The position numbers were made by a program, and so were the translations under genes. Under the pieces are notes generated by a model, which saw only the letters and a program-made list of their open reading frames with translations, was not told the origin of the DNA and did no database searches. From Proteinivorax tanatarense (GTDB lineage Bacteria; Bacillota; Proteinivoracia; Proteinivoracales; Proteinivoracaceae), in the NCBI RefSeq assembly GCF_040267685.1, contig NZ_CP158367.1, positions 1,302,001-1,366,000 of the forward strand: 64,000 bases of DNA. Reading direction: 5' to 3'. This document shows positions 5,303-51,552 of the stretch, piece by piece (position 1 is the first letter of the stretch; each line of letters opens with the position of its first letter).

Positions 5303-6644
5303 TGGTGGAGTCTTATTGACAGAAAATTGCAACAGAAAAATAAAGTCAGTAATAATTGACAGCCGAATACCATCCAGTAATAGTTTATTTGTGCCTCTAA
5401 AAGGAGAAAACCATGATGGGCATGATTTTATCGAAAGTGCTGTAAAAAATGGCAGTAAATGTGTTTTTGTCGAAAATGAAAAATATATAGATAAAAATTT
5501 AGATTGTGAATTTATTTTACAAAAAGACAATCTCAAAGCACTACAACAGTTAGCTACCAACTATAGAAAATGCTTAAACATTGAAGTTATAGCTATAACT
5601 GGTAGTAATGGGAAAACGACAACAAAGGATTTAATTTATTCTATATTTGCTAAAAAATACAACACATTTAAAACACAAGGCAACTTTAATAATGAAATAG
5701 GTCTTCCAATTATGCTTACGAGATTGGAGTCAAGTCATGAAGTTGCTGTCTTGGAGTTGGGTATGAGCAATTTTGGGGAAATCGATTTTTTGGCTAATAT
5801 ATCAAAGCCAGATGTTGGGATTATAACTAATATTGGAGAATCTCATATTGAATTTTTAAAAACAAGAGAAGGAATTGCTAAGGCCAAAGGAGAGTTGCTA
5901 TATAATGTAGACGTTGAGGGGAAAGCCATATTAAATGGAGATGACCCCTACTTGCAAAAGATGAAAAATATTCACTCTAACTCTTGGTTATATGGATTTG
6001 GAAAGCATAATCACCTGTATGCATATGATTTAAAACAAACAAATGAAGGAGTAGAATTTACTGTAAATGGATTAGGGAAGAATTTCTCGGTTTGGTTACC
6101 AATGCTTGGTAAACACAATGTATCTAATGCTTTAGCAGCTATTTTATGTGCCCTTTTACATGGTCTTACAGAACATGAAATTAAGTTAGGACTTAACAGA
6201 CTTGATATGACAGGTATGCGCACAGAGATTATTCAAAGTAAAAATAAAAAGGTTAAAATTATCAGTGACTGCTATAATTCTTCTTTAACCTCCACAATAG
6301 CAGCTATAAATGTATTAAATGATTTTAAACACTCAGGACGGAAAATTGCCGTAGTTGGTGATATGCTAGAGTTAGGAGATATCTCAAAGAAAGCTCACAT
6401 TGAAGCGGGGGAAAAGGTTGGGGAAAGTAAAGTAGATATGTTAATAGCTATAGGTCGGTACGCAGAAGATTTAGCCCAAGGATTTAATAATAAAAGGGGA
6501 GAAAAGACTTTAGTCTTTAATGAAACTGATTATCTATTAACTAAAATAAAAAAATATTTAAGAGAAGGTGACTTAATCCTTGTAAAAGGGTCTAGAGGTC
6601 TAAAGCTAGAAAGGGTAGTCAACTTTTTACGAGAGGAGTTTTAG
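5268..6644 (+). CDS. murF: UDP-N-acetylmuramoyl-tripeptide--D-alanyl-D-alanine ligase MurF
   Basis: MurF adds D-Ala-D-Ala to complete the UDP-MurNAc-pentapeptide. The 458-residue product has the Mur-ligase ATP loop ITGSNGKTTTK (about 109-119), the GNFNNEIGLP stretch and the typical C-terminal region (VVGDMLELG, VKGSRGLKLE). ATG 5268 follows AAGGAG at 5251-5256 and lies inside the end of murE, so the two are probably translationally coupled. Four bases separate it from mraY. Confidence 0.96.
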   Translation: MKITVEELLNLSGGVLLTENCNRKIKSVIIDSRIPSSNSLFVPLKGENHDGHDFIESAVKNGSKCVFVENEKYIDKNLDCEFILQKDNLKALQQLATNYRKCLNIEVIAITGSNGKTTTKDLIYSIFAKKYNTFKTQGNFNNEIGLPIMLTRLESSHEVAVLELGMSNFGEIDFLANISKPDVGIITNIGESHIEFLKTREGIAKAKGELLYNVDVEGKAILNGDDPYLQKMKNIHSNSWLYGFGKHNHLYAYDLKQTNEGVEFTVNGLGKNFSVWLPMLGKHNVSNALAAILCALLHGLTEHEIKLGLNRLDMTGMRTEIIQSKNKKVKIISDCYNSSLTSTIAAINVLNDFKHSGRKIAVVGDMLELGDISKKAHIEAGEKVGESKVDMLIAIGRYAEDLAQGFNNKRGEKTLVFNETDYLLTKIKKYLREGDLILVKGSRGLKLERVVNFLREEF

Positions 6645-28412: not shown

Positions 28413-29330
28413 TTGCAAAAGGAAAAACATTTTACTTGTCAACAATGTGGAATTAGAGTGGATGTTTTTTTGGTTGAAAAAACAGGCTTGTCTCGATCTC
28501 AAATAAAAAAACTAATCCAAGATGGAAACTTAATAGTGGATGGAAAAAAAGTGATGAAATCTAGTTTAAAGTTAAAAGAAGAACAAAAAATTACTCTTCT
28601 AATACCAGAGCCTAAACAAACTAGCATAGAACCAGAAAACATTCCTTTAAACATAATTTATGAAGATACAGATATTTGTGTTGTTAATAAACCACAAGAT
28701 ATGGTAGTGCACCCGGCCCCAGGACATTATTCTGGGACCTTAGTAAATGGATTACTGTATCACTTAGGTGACTTATCATCAATTGGTGGTGTAAAAAGAC
28801 CAGGAGTGGTACATAGGTTAGATAAAGACACTTCCGGCTTGCTCGTGGTGGCAAAAAATGATAATGCCCATGAAGATTTATCAAACCAGATGGCAGAAAG
28901 ACTAACAAAAAAAATATATTGGGCAATTGTAGAGGGGGTTGTAAAAAGAGAGGAAGGAGTGATTAGCGCACCAGTAGGTCGCAATCCTAAAGACCGAAAG
29001 CAAATGGTTGTGATTCGGAACTCAACTAGTAGAGAAGCAACTACATATTATAAAGTTGTAAAAAGATTTAAAGAGCACACTCTTTTAGAATTTGATTTAA
29101 TAACTGGAAGAACACATCAAATTAGAGTCCATTCAAAATTTATCGGTCATCCTATAGTGGGTGATTTAACTTATGGTTTTAAAAGACAAAAATTTAATAC
29201 TTCAGGACAGATTCTCCATGCGAAAAAATTGGGCTTTTATCATCCTGTCACCAAAAAGTGGATGAACTTTACAAGCCCTATACCTGCACAATTCACAAAT
29301 GTGTTAAAGAAACTTATTGTCATGAATTAA
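28413..29330 (+). CDS. rluD: RluA/RluD family rRNA pseudouridine synthase
   Basis: The protein has an N-terminal S4 domain (RVDVFLVEKTGLSRSQIKKLIQDG) and a pseudouridine synthase domain with the catalytic Asp in GVVHRLDKDTSGLLVVAKN, plus the C-terminal LITGRTHQIRVH motif. It is the YlyB/RluD type, acting on 23S rRNA. No ATG lies at the right place. The frame opens at 28374 inside lspA; TTG 28413, after AAGAGGA, gives a 305-residue protein of family size and is chosen. The exact target uridine cannot be told from sequence. Confidence 0.92.
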   Translation: MQKEKHFTCQQCGIRVDVFLVEKTGLSRSQIKKLIQDGNLIVDGKKVMKSSLKLKEEQKITLLIPEPKQTSIEPENIPLNIIYEDTDICVVNKPQDMVVHPAPGHYSGTLVNGLLYHLGDLSSIGGVKRPGVVHRLDKDTSGLLVVAKNDNAHEDLSNQMAERLTKKIYWAIVEGVVKREEGVISAPVGRNPKDRKQMVVIRNSTSREATTYYKVVKRFKEHTLLEFDLITGRTHQIRVHSKFIGHPIVGDLTYGFKRQKFNTSGQILHAKKLGFYHPVTKKWMNFTSPIPAQFTNVLKKLIVMN

Positions 29331-29350
29331 AACTTGTGTTATTATCTATT

Positions 29351-29456
29351 AGAAGCCTTTAAACTAATCCGAGAGATTAGTAAGGAGTAACCTCAAAATA
29401 ACGGTAAAACTTCTTGCTAATTTTGCGTGCGCAAAATGGACAAGAAGTTTTTTTAT
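29351..29456 (+). promoter_or_regulatory. PyrR-dependent attenuator upstream of uraA
   Basis: The hairpin ACTAAT-CCGAGAG-ATTAGT (29363-29381) carries the CnGnGAG loop that PyrR binds with UMP, extended by CCTT/AAGG after a 5' bulge as in known PyrR sites. It is followed by a terminator: AACTTCTTG (29409-29417) pairs with CAAGAAGTT (29441-29449) with a run of seven T residues. AGAAG at 29351 can pair with CTTCT of the terminator's 5' arm, giving an antiterminator. Low UMP should allow readthrough into the uracil permease gene (known mechanism). Confidence 0.85.
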
Positions 29457-29485
29457 ACCATTGAAGTTTCAATTTATAAGGTTAC

Positions 29486-29530
29486 TTCTTTAAACTGAGA
29501 CGGAGAGCTCAGAAAAGGAGGGTATCCTCC
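29486..29530 (+). promoter_or_regulatory. Second PyrR-type hairpin and GGAGG hairpin before uraA
   Basis: CTGAG-ACGGAGAG-CTCAG (29495-29512) again carries a CnGnGAG loop, flanked by CTTTAAACT and AAGGAG just as the first site is. It is followed by GGAGG-GTAT-CCTCC (29517-29530) without a T run. It may act on translation, or be a leftover of a second attenuator. The uraA ribosome site GAGGAGG lies 28 bases further on. Confidence 0.55.
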
Positions 29531-29571
29531 ACACCTACTTAAGGGCTAAAACAAATTTGAGGAGGACAACA

Positions 29572-30798
29572 ATGAAAAATCATAATTTATCGGCTTGGCA
29601 GATGCTGCCACTATCAATTCAGCATATTTTTGCTATGTTTGGTGCAACGATTTTAGTTCCAGCTTTGACTGGGCTTGATATGGGAGTCGCTCTTTTTACT
29701 TCAGCTTTGGGAACTTTACTATTTCATTTTATTACCAAGGGGCAGGTGCCCGCATATTTAGGGTCTTCTTTTGCATTTATTTATCCTATACAGCAACTAT
29801 CTTCTGCATATTCTCCGGCAGTTGCTTTAGGAGGAACGGCGGTAGCGGGTGTTATGTATTTAGCTGTTTCCACTTTAATAAAAATTATAGGTACAGATTT
29901 TTTAAAAAAAATTTTACCACCTGTTGTTGTAGGACCTGTTATAATGACGATAGGGCTATCGTTGGCACCAGTTGCAAAAGATATGGCGACATCACATACA
30001 CCTACCGCAGTTTTTACATTGCTTATAGCCATAATGTTAACATCTTTTGGCAAAGGGTTCTTGAAGGTTATTCCATTATTGTTAGCAATAATAGGGGGGT
30101 ATCTTTTTGCCATAGGATATCAGTGGCTGGCACCTATTGAACTGTTTGGGGTAACATTATTATCATCAACTAACATAATAGATTTTTCAGCCGTAGCTTC
30201 TAGTAGCTGGGTTCCTACCTTACCTAACTTTACCACCCCAAAATTTGAATTTAGTGCAATGATTTATATGATTCCTTTTGTACTCGTTACTTTGGTAGAA
30301 CACCTAGGGGATATATTGGCTATAGGTAAAACAATAGATAAGGACTTAGTTAAAGAGCCTGGTTTACCTAGAACTTTAGCCGGTGATGGAGTAGCAACCT
30401 TGTTTGCATCCTTTTTGGGAGGACCACCAAATACCACATATGGGGAAAATATTGGCGTTTTAGCTATAACAAAGGTTAAAGACCCAAAAGTAATTCAAGT
30501 CGCCGCCATGATAGTTATTTTTTTAAGTGTAAACCCTAAGTTTGTAGCTCTATTGGGTACAATTCCAGAAGCGGTAATGGGCGGGATTGTAATACTACTT
30601 TTTGGAATGATAGCGTCGGTTGGAATTAGAACTCTAGTAGAAAACAAAGTAGATTTAGCAAATACAAGGAATCTTGTGATAGTTTCAACTATTTTAATAC
30701 TAGGAATTAGTGGTATAAGTGTCTGGAATTTTGAAGGAATGGGACTAGCTGCATTAGTTGGTATTGCTTTAAACGTATTGTTGCCAGATTTTAATTAA
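29572..30798 (+). CDS. uraA: Uracil permease (NCS2 family; UraA/PyrP)
   Basis: This is an NCS2 nucleobase:cation symporter of 408 residues with about 12-14 membrane segments. Recognisable regions are QHIFAMFGATILVPALTG near the N-terminus, the VEHLGDILAIGKTI block, and GGPPNTTYGENIGVLAITKV, the family signature. The PyrR-type leader points to uracil rather than xanthine as substrate. TTG 29557 opens the frame, but ATG 29572 is 7 bases after GAGGAGG. In B. subtilis the equivalent spot holds the whole pyrR-pyrP-pyrB... operon; only the permease is here. Confidence 0.94.
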   Translation: MKNHNLSAWQMLPLSIQHIFAMFGATILVPALTGLDMGVALFTSALGTLLFHFITKGQVPAYLGSSFAFIYPIQQLSSAYSPAVALGGTAVAGVMYLAVSTLIKIIGTDFLKKILPPVVVGPVIMTIGLSLAPVAKDMATSHTPTAVFTLLIAIMLTSFGKGFLKVIPLLLAIIGGYLFAIGYQWLAPIELFGVTLLSSTNIIDFSAVASSSWVPTLPNFTTPKFEFSAMIYMIPFVLVTLVEHLGDILAIGKTIDKDLVKEPGLPRTLAGDGVATLFASFLGGPPNTTYGENIGVLAITKVKDPKVIQVAAMIVIFLSVNPKFVALLGTIPEAVMGGIVILLFGMIASVGIRTLVENKVDLANTRNLVIVSTILILGISGISVWNFEGMGLAALVGIALNVLLPDFN

Positions 30799-50763: not shown

Positions 50764-51552
50764 ATGAGAAATGAAAAAACAAAAATTTTAGTTGAAGCAG
50801 GAGTTATGTTAGCCCTGGCTATTATTTTAAGCTATTTAAGACTTGGCAGAATGCCCCAAGGTGGTTCTGTTTCTTTACAAATGCTTCCTATTTTTATAAT
50901 AGCGTTGCGCTGGGGTGTCGTTCCAGGTGTTTTGACTGGGGCAGCATTTGGTTTAATGCAGATTTTATTAGGAGAAGCATGGATAGCTACGCCGTTACAG
51001 GCATTTATTGATTATCCATTAGCTTTTGGAGTTGTTGGTATTGCAGGATTTTTTAGAAACAAAAAAGTTGTTGGTATTGCATTAGGGGGAATGCTGAGGT
51101 TTTTGTGTCACTTTTTTGCTGGTGTTGTATTTTTCGCTGAATATGCGGGAGAACAGAATGTGTATATTTATTCGGGGGTATACAATATTACTTATATTCT
51201 CCCAGAAATCATAATAGCGGCTTTGATCACTCCAATGTTACTTTCTAAAATTAAAGGAGTGTCAAATAATCAGCAACAGGAGCAGGAGTACCACACCTTT
51301 AAGCTACTTATATCAGTAGCCTTACCTCTTCTTTTGACAGTATTTTTAATGGATGAATTTAAGCTAGAATTTATAAATGAATTTTTATTTAAGGGGGTAA
51401 TAGGTTTAGCTTGGCTAATAACCTTAGTCGCAAACATTAGAGATTACTTAAAAAACAACTTTAAAACTCCTTTAATAGTTTTTATATATACTCAATTGGT
51501 GACATTAGCGGCATATATTGCGATAGCAGTTTTTACTTTATTTTCTAGTTAA
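50764..51552 (+). CDS. thiT: Thiamine ECF transporter S component ThiT, with C-terminal extension
   Basis: ThiT is the thiamine-binding membrane subunit of an ECF transporter. Residues about 1-168 match the family: six hydrophobic segments, LRLGRMPQGGSVSLQMLPIFIIALRWG, and the C-terminal NITYILPEII region. The protein is 262 residues, whereas the family is usually about 180-200. After a Gln/Glu-rich linker (about 170-182) three further hydrophobic segments occur (about 183-200, 212-232, 240-260). The extension is unidentified. The TPP riboswitch supports thiamine as substrate. The ECF energising genes are not in this window. ATG 50764 follows AAAGGAGG. Confidence 0.9.
   Translation: MRNEKTKILVEAGVMLALAIILSYLRLGRMPQGGSVSLQMLPIFIIALRWGVVPGVLTGAAFGLMQILLGEAWIATPLQAFIDYPLAFGVVGIAGFFRNKKVVGIALGGMLRFLCHFFAGVVFFAEYAGEQNVYIYSGVYNITYILPEIIIAALITPMLLSKIKGVSNNQQQEQEYHTFKLLISVALPLLLTVFLMDEFKLEFINEFLFKGVIGLAWLITLVANIRDYLKNNFKTPLIVFIYTQLVTLAAYIAIAVFTLFSS

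Follow-up and report, generated by a model that had tools for sequence, protein, structure and literature searches.

The leader of uraA in Proteinivorax tanatarense raises the question of what two PyrR-type hairpins do in front of one gene when a terminator follows only the first of them. PyrR is a textbook protein-controlled attenuator. In the window, that is, the whole 64,000-nucleotide stretch of DNA analyzed here, the leader spans positions 29317–29574 of the plus strand and consists of a promoter, a first hairpin (BL1), an antiterminator, a terminator, and then a second hairpin (BL2) before the Shine-Dalgarno (SD) sequence of uraA. We judge, with a probability of roughly 0.6, that uraA, a uracil permease gene with a transcript of its own, is governed by a tandem PyrR switch at two levels, in which BL1 would control transcription and BL2 translation. 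A sequence-only reading had described both hairpins, with CNGNGAG loops and shared flanks, and a T-run terminator after the first one alone; these features can be read directly in the sequence, the common flanks being CTTTAAACT and AAGGAG. The pattern CTTTAAAN{5,9}CNGNGAG occurs four times in the 3.09-Mb genome, two of these in the uraA leader, and its backwards control does not occur at all.

The candidate promoter, TTGTCA-17-TATTAT (29317–29345, plus strand), lies within the 3' end of rluD and matches the consensus at 10 of 12 positions, where shuffles of the region contain a mean of 1.3 promoter-like sites. The sister species, as judged by eye, carries TTGCCA-17-TATTAT at the matching place. 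From a promoter at this position, transcription would begin near 29350, where the foot of BL1 lies. At the other end of the leader, the SD sequence GAGGAGG (29559–29565), as read in the sequence, lies 6 nucleotides 5' of the ATG at 29572. The gene (29572–30798, plus strand) encodes a uracil/NCS2 permease of 408 amino acids that scores 330 bits against NCBIfam TIGR00801 (cut-off 291.8) and 355 bits against the uracil permease model NF007995, which is below the cut-off of 477.

BL1 (29356–29385, plus strand) is built of CCTT (29356–29359), TAAA, CTAAT (29364–29368), the loop CCGAGAG (29369–29375), ATTAG (29376–29380), T, and AAGG (29382–29385). Its loop is one nucleotide short of the consensus UCC-N-GNGAG, so that in place of a CNGNGA hexaloop closed by C-G there is a five-nucleotide loop, CGAGA, with a C-G closing pair. 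Loops of five bases are also found in plain pyr leaders, namely those of pyrC in three relatives (G002–G004) and of pyrB in G036, which belongs to an unrelated genus of another family. Only 2 of 200 shuffles were as stable as the BL1 fold. A search for Rfam PyrR elements, as proposed in the sequence-only reading, had a divided outcome: at the gathering cut-off, RF00515 matched nothing in the 64-kb window, whereas with the cut-off removed BL1 together with its terminator reached 32 bits (gathering cut-off 54) and BL2 gave no match. We also used a hairpin-only model (R1) based on 33 uraA-leader hairpins, all of them from outside the family of P. tanatarense. BL1 scored 29.9 bits against R1 (E = 8e-4 in 129 kb; whole-genome E = 0.019), a significant match.

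Downstream of BL1, an intrinsic terminator (29406–29454, plus strand; T run 29448–29454) has a predicted stability of -19.1 kcal/mol (z = -5.3) that was equaled by none of 200 shuffles, and it forms part of the RF00515 match. The 3' side of BL1, ATTAGTAAGGAGT (29376–29388, plus strand), is predicted to act as the 5' strand of an antiterminator by pairing with ACTTCTTGCTAAT (29409–29421) in folds of the unfinished transcript, and the 5' arm of the terminator doubles as the 3' strand of the antiterminator. In folds of the transcript before the 3' arm of the terminator has been made, the antiterminator probability of P. tanatarense (G000) fell from 0.99 with BL1 free to 0.06 with BL1 held. Corresponding values were 0.93 and 0.01 in the sister species (G001), 0.85 and 0.00 in G002, and 0.99 and 0.41 in both G003 and G004. 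BL1 and the antiterminator are thus mutually exclusive in the predicted folds, and an intrinsic terminator follows them, in all five genomes of the family, which is the arrangement of an attenuator. At full terminator length, by contrast, the terminator dominates the equilibrium folds whether BL1 is held or free, so this first stage depends on the order of folding; such dominance is what a kinetic decision would lead one to expect.

BL1 is very probably a PyrR transcription attenuator even though it misses the Rfam cut-off. It shares with attenuators of the Bacillus subtilis type (RF00515) the CCUU/AAGG lower stem, the UAAA internal loop, the CNGNGAG loop, a 3' strand that is shared with the antiterminator, and then a terminator and a downstream pyrimidine gene. 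It differs from them in lacking one loop base, in its score below the Rfam cut-off, and in the second, terminator-less hairpin that follows. By analogy with B. subtilis, BL1 would work by standard PyrR attenuation, as summarized in PMC4347634 and PMC6296669.

BL2 (29485–29520, plus strand; -12.3 kcal/mol) is composed of CTTCTT (29485–29490), TAAA, CTGAG (29495–29499), A, the loop CGGAGAG (29501–29507), CTCAG (29508–29512), AA, and AAGGAG (29515–29520). It has the CNGNGA loop, the UAAA internal loop and the AAGG strand, and an A-G mismatch, in place of the C-G pair of the consensus, closes its CGGAGA hexaloop. None of 200 shuffles was as stable. Against R1, BL2 scored 11.8 bits (E = 9.5), which is not significant, and it therefore cannot be called by score; the second uraA hairpins of the relatives scored 13.4 bits (G001) and 20.7 bits (G002, E = 0.095).

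Comparison with relatives speaks more clearly for BL2. Among 61 genomes examined, 42 have a uraA-like gene, and the family is represented by five genomes: P. tanatarense, a second species of the same genus (G001, UraA 85% identical), and G002, G003 and G004 (UraA 62–65% identical). BL1 and its terminator are present in all five, with a loop that is one base short in each case (CCGAGAG in three, CCGGGAG in two). BL2 is kept in P. tanatarense and G001, is present in a changed form in G002, and is absent from G003 and G004. Between the two Proteinivorax species, BL2 with its flanks is identical at 40 of 42 bases, compared to 61 of 170 fourfold-degenerate sites of uraA, and the two differences (CGGAGAG to CAGCGAG) both fall on the free N positions of CNGNGAG. 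Failure of the second hairpin to be conserved in related genomes had been named beforehand as grounds for rejecting it. In fact the sister species retains the hairpin, with weaker conservation in a second genus, and that objection fails. BL2 is a conserved, degenerate hairpin that resembles PyrR-binding elements in sequence.

In a motif survey of 110 uraA leaders (30 loci from the relatives search and 80 others), 70 lacked a hairpin match, 37 had a single one, and the three with two were G000, G001 and G002. The motif missed the second hairpin of locus L027 (G017) and an SD-overlapping hairpin at L026. The uraA leader at L027 has two PyrR hairpins 74 nucleotides apart with a single terminator after both, which is reminiscent of glycine riboswitches. 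L034 was dropped as a further tandem; a second CTGAGAG is present there without the flanks.

Gene order in outgroups suggests where a second hairpin could have come from. The order rluD-hairpin-pyrR-hairpin-uraA occurs at L025 and L030 (rluD assigned by eye), and hairpin-pyrR-hairpin-uraA at L016, L022 and L026; at L026 the hairpin of uraA covers the SD sequence, and a terminator accompanies that of pyrR. Deletion of pyrR from an L026-like order would yield exactly hairpin-terminator-hairpin-SD-uraA. The sequence-only reading had suggested a fusion of two attenuators left after the loss of pyrR. The outgroup order makes the fusion plausible, but the loss of pyrR is ruled out: each of the six genomes searched (G000–G004 and G036) has one copy, and the PyrR of P. 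tanatarense passes NCBIfam NF003549 with 254 bits against a cut-off of 138. In all five family genomes pyrR is far from uraA. Because it is still encoded elsewhere, pyrR moved or was replaced. The pyrR gene of P. tanatarense (L043, 6396–6944) is monocistronic and lies beside comEC-like and holA-like genes, as judged by eye. No PyrR hairpin was seen upstream of it, so that this pyrR may lack autoregulation.

The same history allows a different view of BL2, in which BL1 works and BL2 is a non-binding remnant of the PyrR element between pyrR and uraA, stranded when pyrR was deleted from between rluD and uraA. Among nine outgroup uraA loci, pyrR is directly upstream in seven, rluD precedes pyrR in four, and hairpins flank pyrR in five; the Proteinivorax family has rluD followed by uraA, with pyrR elsewhere, and the weak R1 score of BL2 would also fit. 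A dead element should not, however, keep 40 of 42 bases where fourfold sites agree at 61 of 170, nor would changes confined to free loop positions be expected of it, and a related hairpin is retained in G002. We consider this view unlikely.

The position of BL2 just before the uraA SD sequence, together with the lack of a terminator, supports the earlier suggestion that the second hairpin may control translation. An anti-SD strand, TCCTCC (29525–29530, plus strand), pairs with GGAGGA (29561–29566) in the predicted fold when BL2 is held. When BL2 is open, GGAGG of BL2 pairs instead with CCTCC; this GGAGG-GTAT-CCTCC hairpin (29517–29530, plus strand), which joins the 3' strand of BL2 to the anti-SD strand and is the proposed ON state, is present in the free leader fold and gone with BL2 held. 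Complementarity between anti-SD and SD persists despite sequence change: TCCTCC:GGAGGA in G000 and G001, TTTCCTT:GAGGAAA in G002.

We calculated the probability that the SD sequence is unpaired with both hairpins free, BL1 held, BL2 held, or both held, using soft constraints. The values were 0.39, 0.39, 0.10 and 0.10 for P. tanatarense; 0.92, 0.30, 0.11 and 0.06 for G001; and 0.23, 0.24, 0.17 and 0.16 for G002. In a hard-constraint version of the calculation with shuffled spacers, a drop in SD exposure at least as large as the real one was seen in 35 of 200 shuffles for G000, 0 of 200 for G001 and 24 of 200 for G002. Thermodynamic support for the SD switch is thus strong for G001 but weak for G000 and G002; the first terminator is clear. 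In a local fold of the P. tanatarense leader that starts at BL2, the SD sequence is paired either way, with unpaired probabilities of 0.01 and 0.00 without and with BL2 held. SD control by BL1 alone was considered for G003 and G004, which have BL1 only, and rejected: complementary strands can be seen by eye, yet SD exposure in the folds is unaffected by BL1 (0.18–0.20).

BL1 and BL2 can also interact with each other. As had been pointed out from the sequence, AAGGAGTAACCT (29382–29393, plus strand), a strand able to leave BL1, is complementary to AGGTTACTTCTT (29479–29490, plus strand), which includes the 5' arm of the BL2 lower stem, and pairing would thus engage the foot of BL2. We confirmed 12 pairs, including one G-T, and the minimum-energy structure predicted for the whole P. 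tanatarense leader, with neither hairpin held, contains the helix. GGTTACTTCTT is unchanged in G001 although the preceding spacer has indels. The helix comprises 12 pairs in G000 (4 of 2000 shuffles), 11 in G001 (34 of 2000) and 4 in G002 (1957 of 2000). A helix conserved throughout the family was therefore rejected, and the BL1–BL2 helix, found only in G000 and G001, is a trait of the genus.

This helix is one point in favor of taking BL2 as a plain RNA element that masks the SD sequence, stabilizes the mRNA or serves as partner of the BL1 strand, without PyrR, so that BL1 alone would sense and its released strand would open the SD sequence. Helices of 12 and 11 pairs in the two Proteinivorax species, a decrease in SD exposure in G001 from 0.92 to 0.30 with BL1 alone held, and the poor model score of BL2 are all consistent with it. 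On the other hand, holding BL1 alone leaves SD exposure in P. tanatarense at 0.39, exactly its free value; preservation of CNGNGAG with changes at N only is the trace that contact with PyrR, and not pairing, would be expected to leave; and second-position hairpins are clearly recognizable elsewhere, at pyrB of G036 and pyrC of G002. An element independent of PyrR thus appears quite improbable, and PyrR-dependent translational control is probably the role of BL2, the likeliest among those weighed here.

From the anatomy, the conservation, the presence of pyrR and the predicted folds, we infer PyrR binding at BL1 and BL2, termination, translational repression and the following order of events for the two-level switch. 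When UMP is plentiful, PyrR would hold BL1, leaving ATTAGTAAGGAGT unable to form the antiterminator; the terminator would fold, and transcription would end upstream of uraA. On messages that are read through, PyrR could hold BL2 and tie up its AAGGAG strand, whereupon TCCTCC would pair with the uraA SD sequence and block translation. When UMP is low, neither hairpin would be held and the antiterminator would form. Later, AAGGAGTAACCT of BL1 could pair with AGGTTACTTCTT and open the foot of BL2; GGAGG would then pair with CCTCC, releasing the SD sequence.

A more far-reaching version would make BL1 and BL2 a physically coupled relay with two stages and one signal, and would have bi-mechanism PyrR leaders arise repeatedly, at uraA, at pyrC of G002 and at pyrB of G036. 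Past the terminator, the freed BL1 strand would invade the foot of BL2 through the 12 pairs, so that the transcriptional decision would be remembered and relayed to translation. A message would end at the terminator or, once read through, already be unlocked; PyrR on BL2 could still lock it again later. We regard this version as tentative and on balance doubtful.

The remaining alternative is that the leader consists of two serial transcription attenuators of the kind seen at carA and pyrB in other genomes, the second one using a cryptic terminator downstream of BL2; leaders with two successive hairpin-terminator pairs occur at L149, L151–L153 and L155–L157. Behind BL2, by contrast, a simple terminator scan of the plus strand listed no terminator-like site (the scan also left the BL1 terminator unlisted), and the GGAGG-CCTCC hairpin that follows BL2 has no T run. 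Serial attenuation at uraA is thus very improbable.

To place the two-level arrangement in a wider context, we searched 398 genomes of the phylum with the spacing pattern GNGAGN6AAGGN{72,102}CTTTAAN{4,11}GNGAG. It matched 18 places in 16 genomes, compared with 9 places in 8 genomes for the backwards control. We read 12 loci in addition to 4 from the earlier comparison, leaving out two overlapping places in G151. Genuine PyrR tandems are present in 11 of the 398 genomes at this one spacing pattern. Within the family they occur at uraA of G000 and G001 and at both uraA and pyrC of G002. The pyrC leader of G002 follows the same two-level plan, with a hairpin, a terminator and a hairpin over the SD sequence (32.4 and 22.9 bits against R1), and so does the pyrB leader of G036 (33.3 and 40.0 bits); the architecture thus also arises at other genes. 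Serial hairpin-terminator pairs were found at carA of G358 and G091 and at pyrB of G096, G058 and G161 (one genus), G103 and G308. In each of the eight tandem loci outside the family, R1 scored both hairpins, at 23.4–44.9 bits, and the downstream gene was confirmed by NCBIfam models in five (L149, L153, L155, L157 and L163) and assigned by likeness in three (L151, L152 and L156). Pattern matches in G375, G050, G193 and G056 were discarded, as reading them revealed no terminator or pyr gene. Hairpins over an SD sequence were found at 15 places in 14 of the 398 genomes, against one in the control; one of these places, L168 (G350), resembles coding sequence. Because a single spacing pattern was searched, the counts of tandems and of SD hairpins are lower bounds. 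The expectation that double PyrR control of a permease would be unusual thus needs qualification: tandems exist in 11 genomes of the phylum, but at uraA, with a terminator between the hairpins, they were found only in the Proteinivorax family.

Translational repression by PyrR has been described for Mycobacterium smegmatis, where the ribosome-binding site carries a PyrR hairpin. In all five family genomes the pyrB leader resembles this type, its PyrR hairpin being situated right on the SD sequence. BL2 of uraA differs in that it lies 38 nucleotides before the SD sequence and would act via the anti-SD strand. The serial carA and pyrB attenuators of other Bacillota resemble the uraA leader in having hairpins about 110–120 nucleotides apart with a terminator between them, and differ in having a terminator after each of the two hairpins. 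A closer parallel is provided by the SAM-II/SAM-V and mixed SAM-II doublets, bi-mechanism tandem riboswitches with a terminator first and control of the ribosome-binding site second, as described in PMC9481103, which contains no mention of PyrR. Like them, the uraA leader would have two sensors for the same signal, the upstream one followed by a terminator and the downstream one predicted to control the ribosome-binding site; unlike them, its sensor would be a protein-binding hairpin. By this analogy, the uraA leader would be a PyrR version of a known bi-mechanism tandem riboswitch. The accessible part of a 2013 regulon survey covers 211 pyrR motifs and discusses tandems for glycine only (PMC3766115). 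Streptococcus pneumoniae has PyrR elements in front of a uracil transporter as well as two pyr operons, according to PMC6296669 and PMC10942264. No description of PyrR leaders with tandem elements or two levels of control was found in the open-access literature searched, which omits most classic PyrR papers.

If BL2 is real, one regulator would act at two levels on a single message, the shut-off of uracil uptake would be steep, fast and reversible, and attenuators and SD-occluding PyrR sites would be interchangeable modules. Rfam-based surveys would then also be expected to overlook elements in second position and loops of five bases. In the rest of the P. tanatarense genome, RF00515 scored 59.6 bits at the carB leader, which is over the cut-off, and 42 bits at the pyrC leader, which is under it.

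The pyrC leaders of P. tanatarense (L042, about 6190–6365; G000:C1:1274190-1274365) and of G001 (L130) contain a PyrR hairpin that covers the SD sequence of a short open reading frame. This frame of 26–31 codons extends through an intrinsic terminator as far as the pyrC start, which it overlaps, and in P. tanatarense a further CCGAGAG hairpin lies upstream of the SD-covering one. This arrangement looks like PyrR-controlled, ribosome-coupled attenuation, which has reportedly been proposed for Thermus ZO5. The plan of hairpin, SD sequence, short open reading frame and terminator recurs at carA, pyrR and other leaders of several unrelated families (L129, L132, L166, L169, L170, L171, L172, L174, L177 and L178; downstream genes named by eye), and such leaders may constitute a widespread, little-noticed class. 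At pyrC of G002 (L147), G004 (L138) and G003 (L139), the PyrR loop GGGAGAC is complementary to the 5' arm of the terminator, GTCTCCC. An antiterminator there would use the binding loop directly, and such use, suggested by this complementarity, may explain the five-base loops. Elsewhere in the window, a TPP riboswitch (RF00059, 50595–50698, 80.7 bits) lies upstream of an open reading frame (50764–51552) that by eye resembles a ThiT-type thiamin transporter, and the next open reading frame resembles thiamin pyrophosphokinase.
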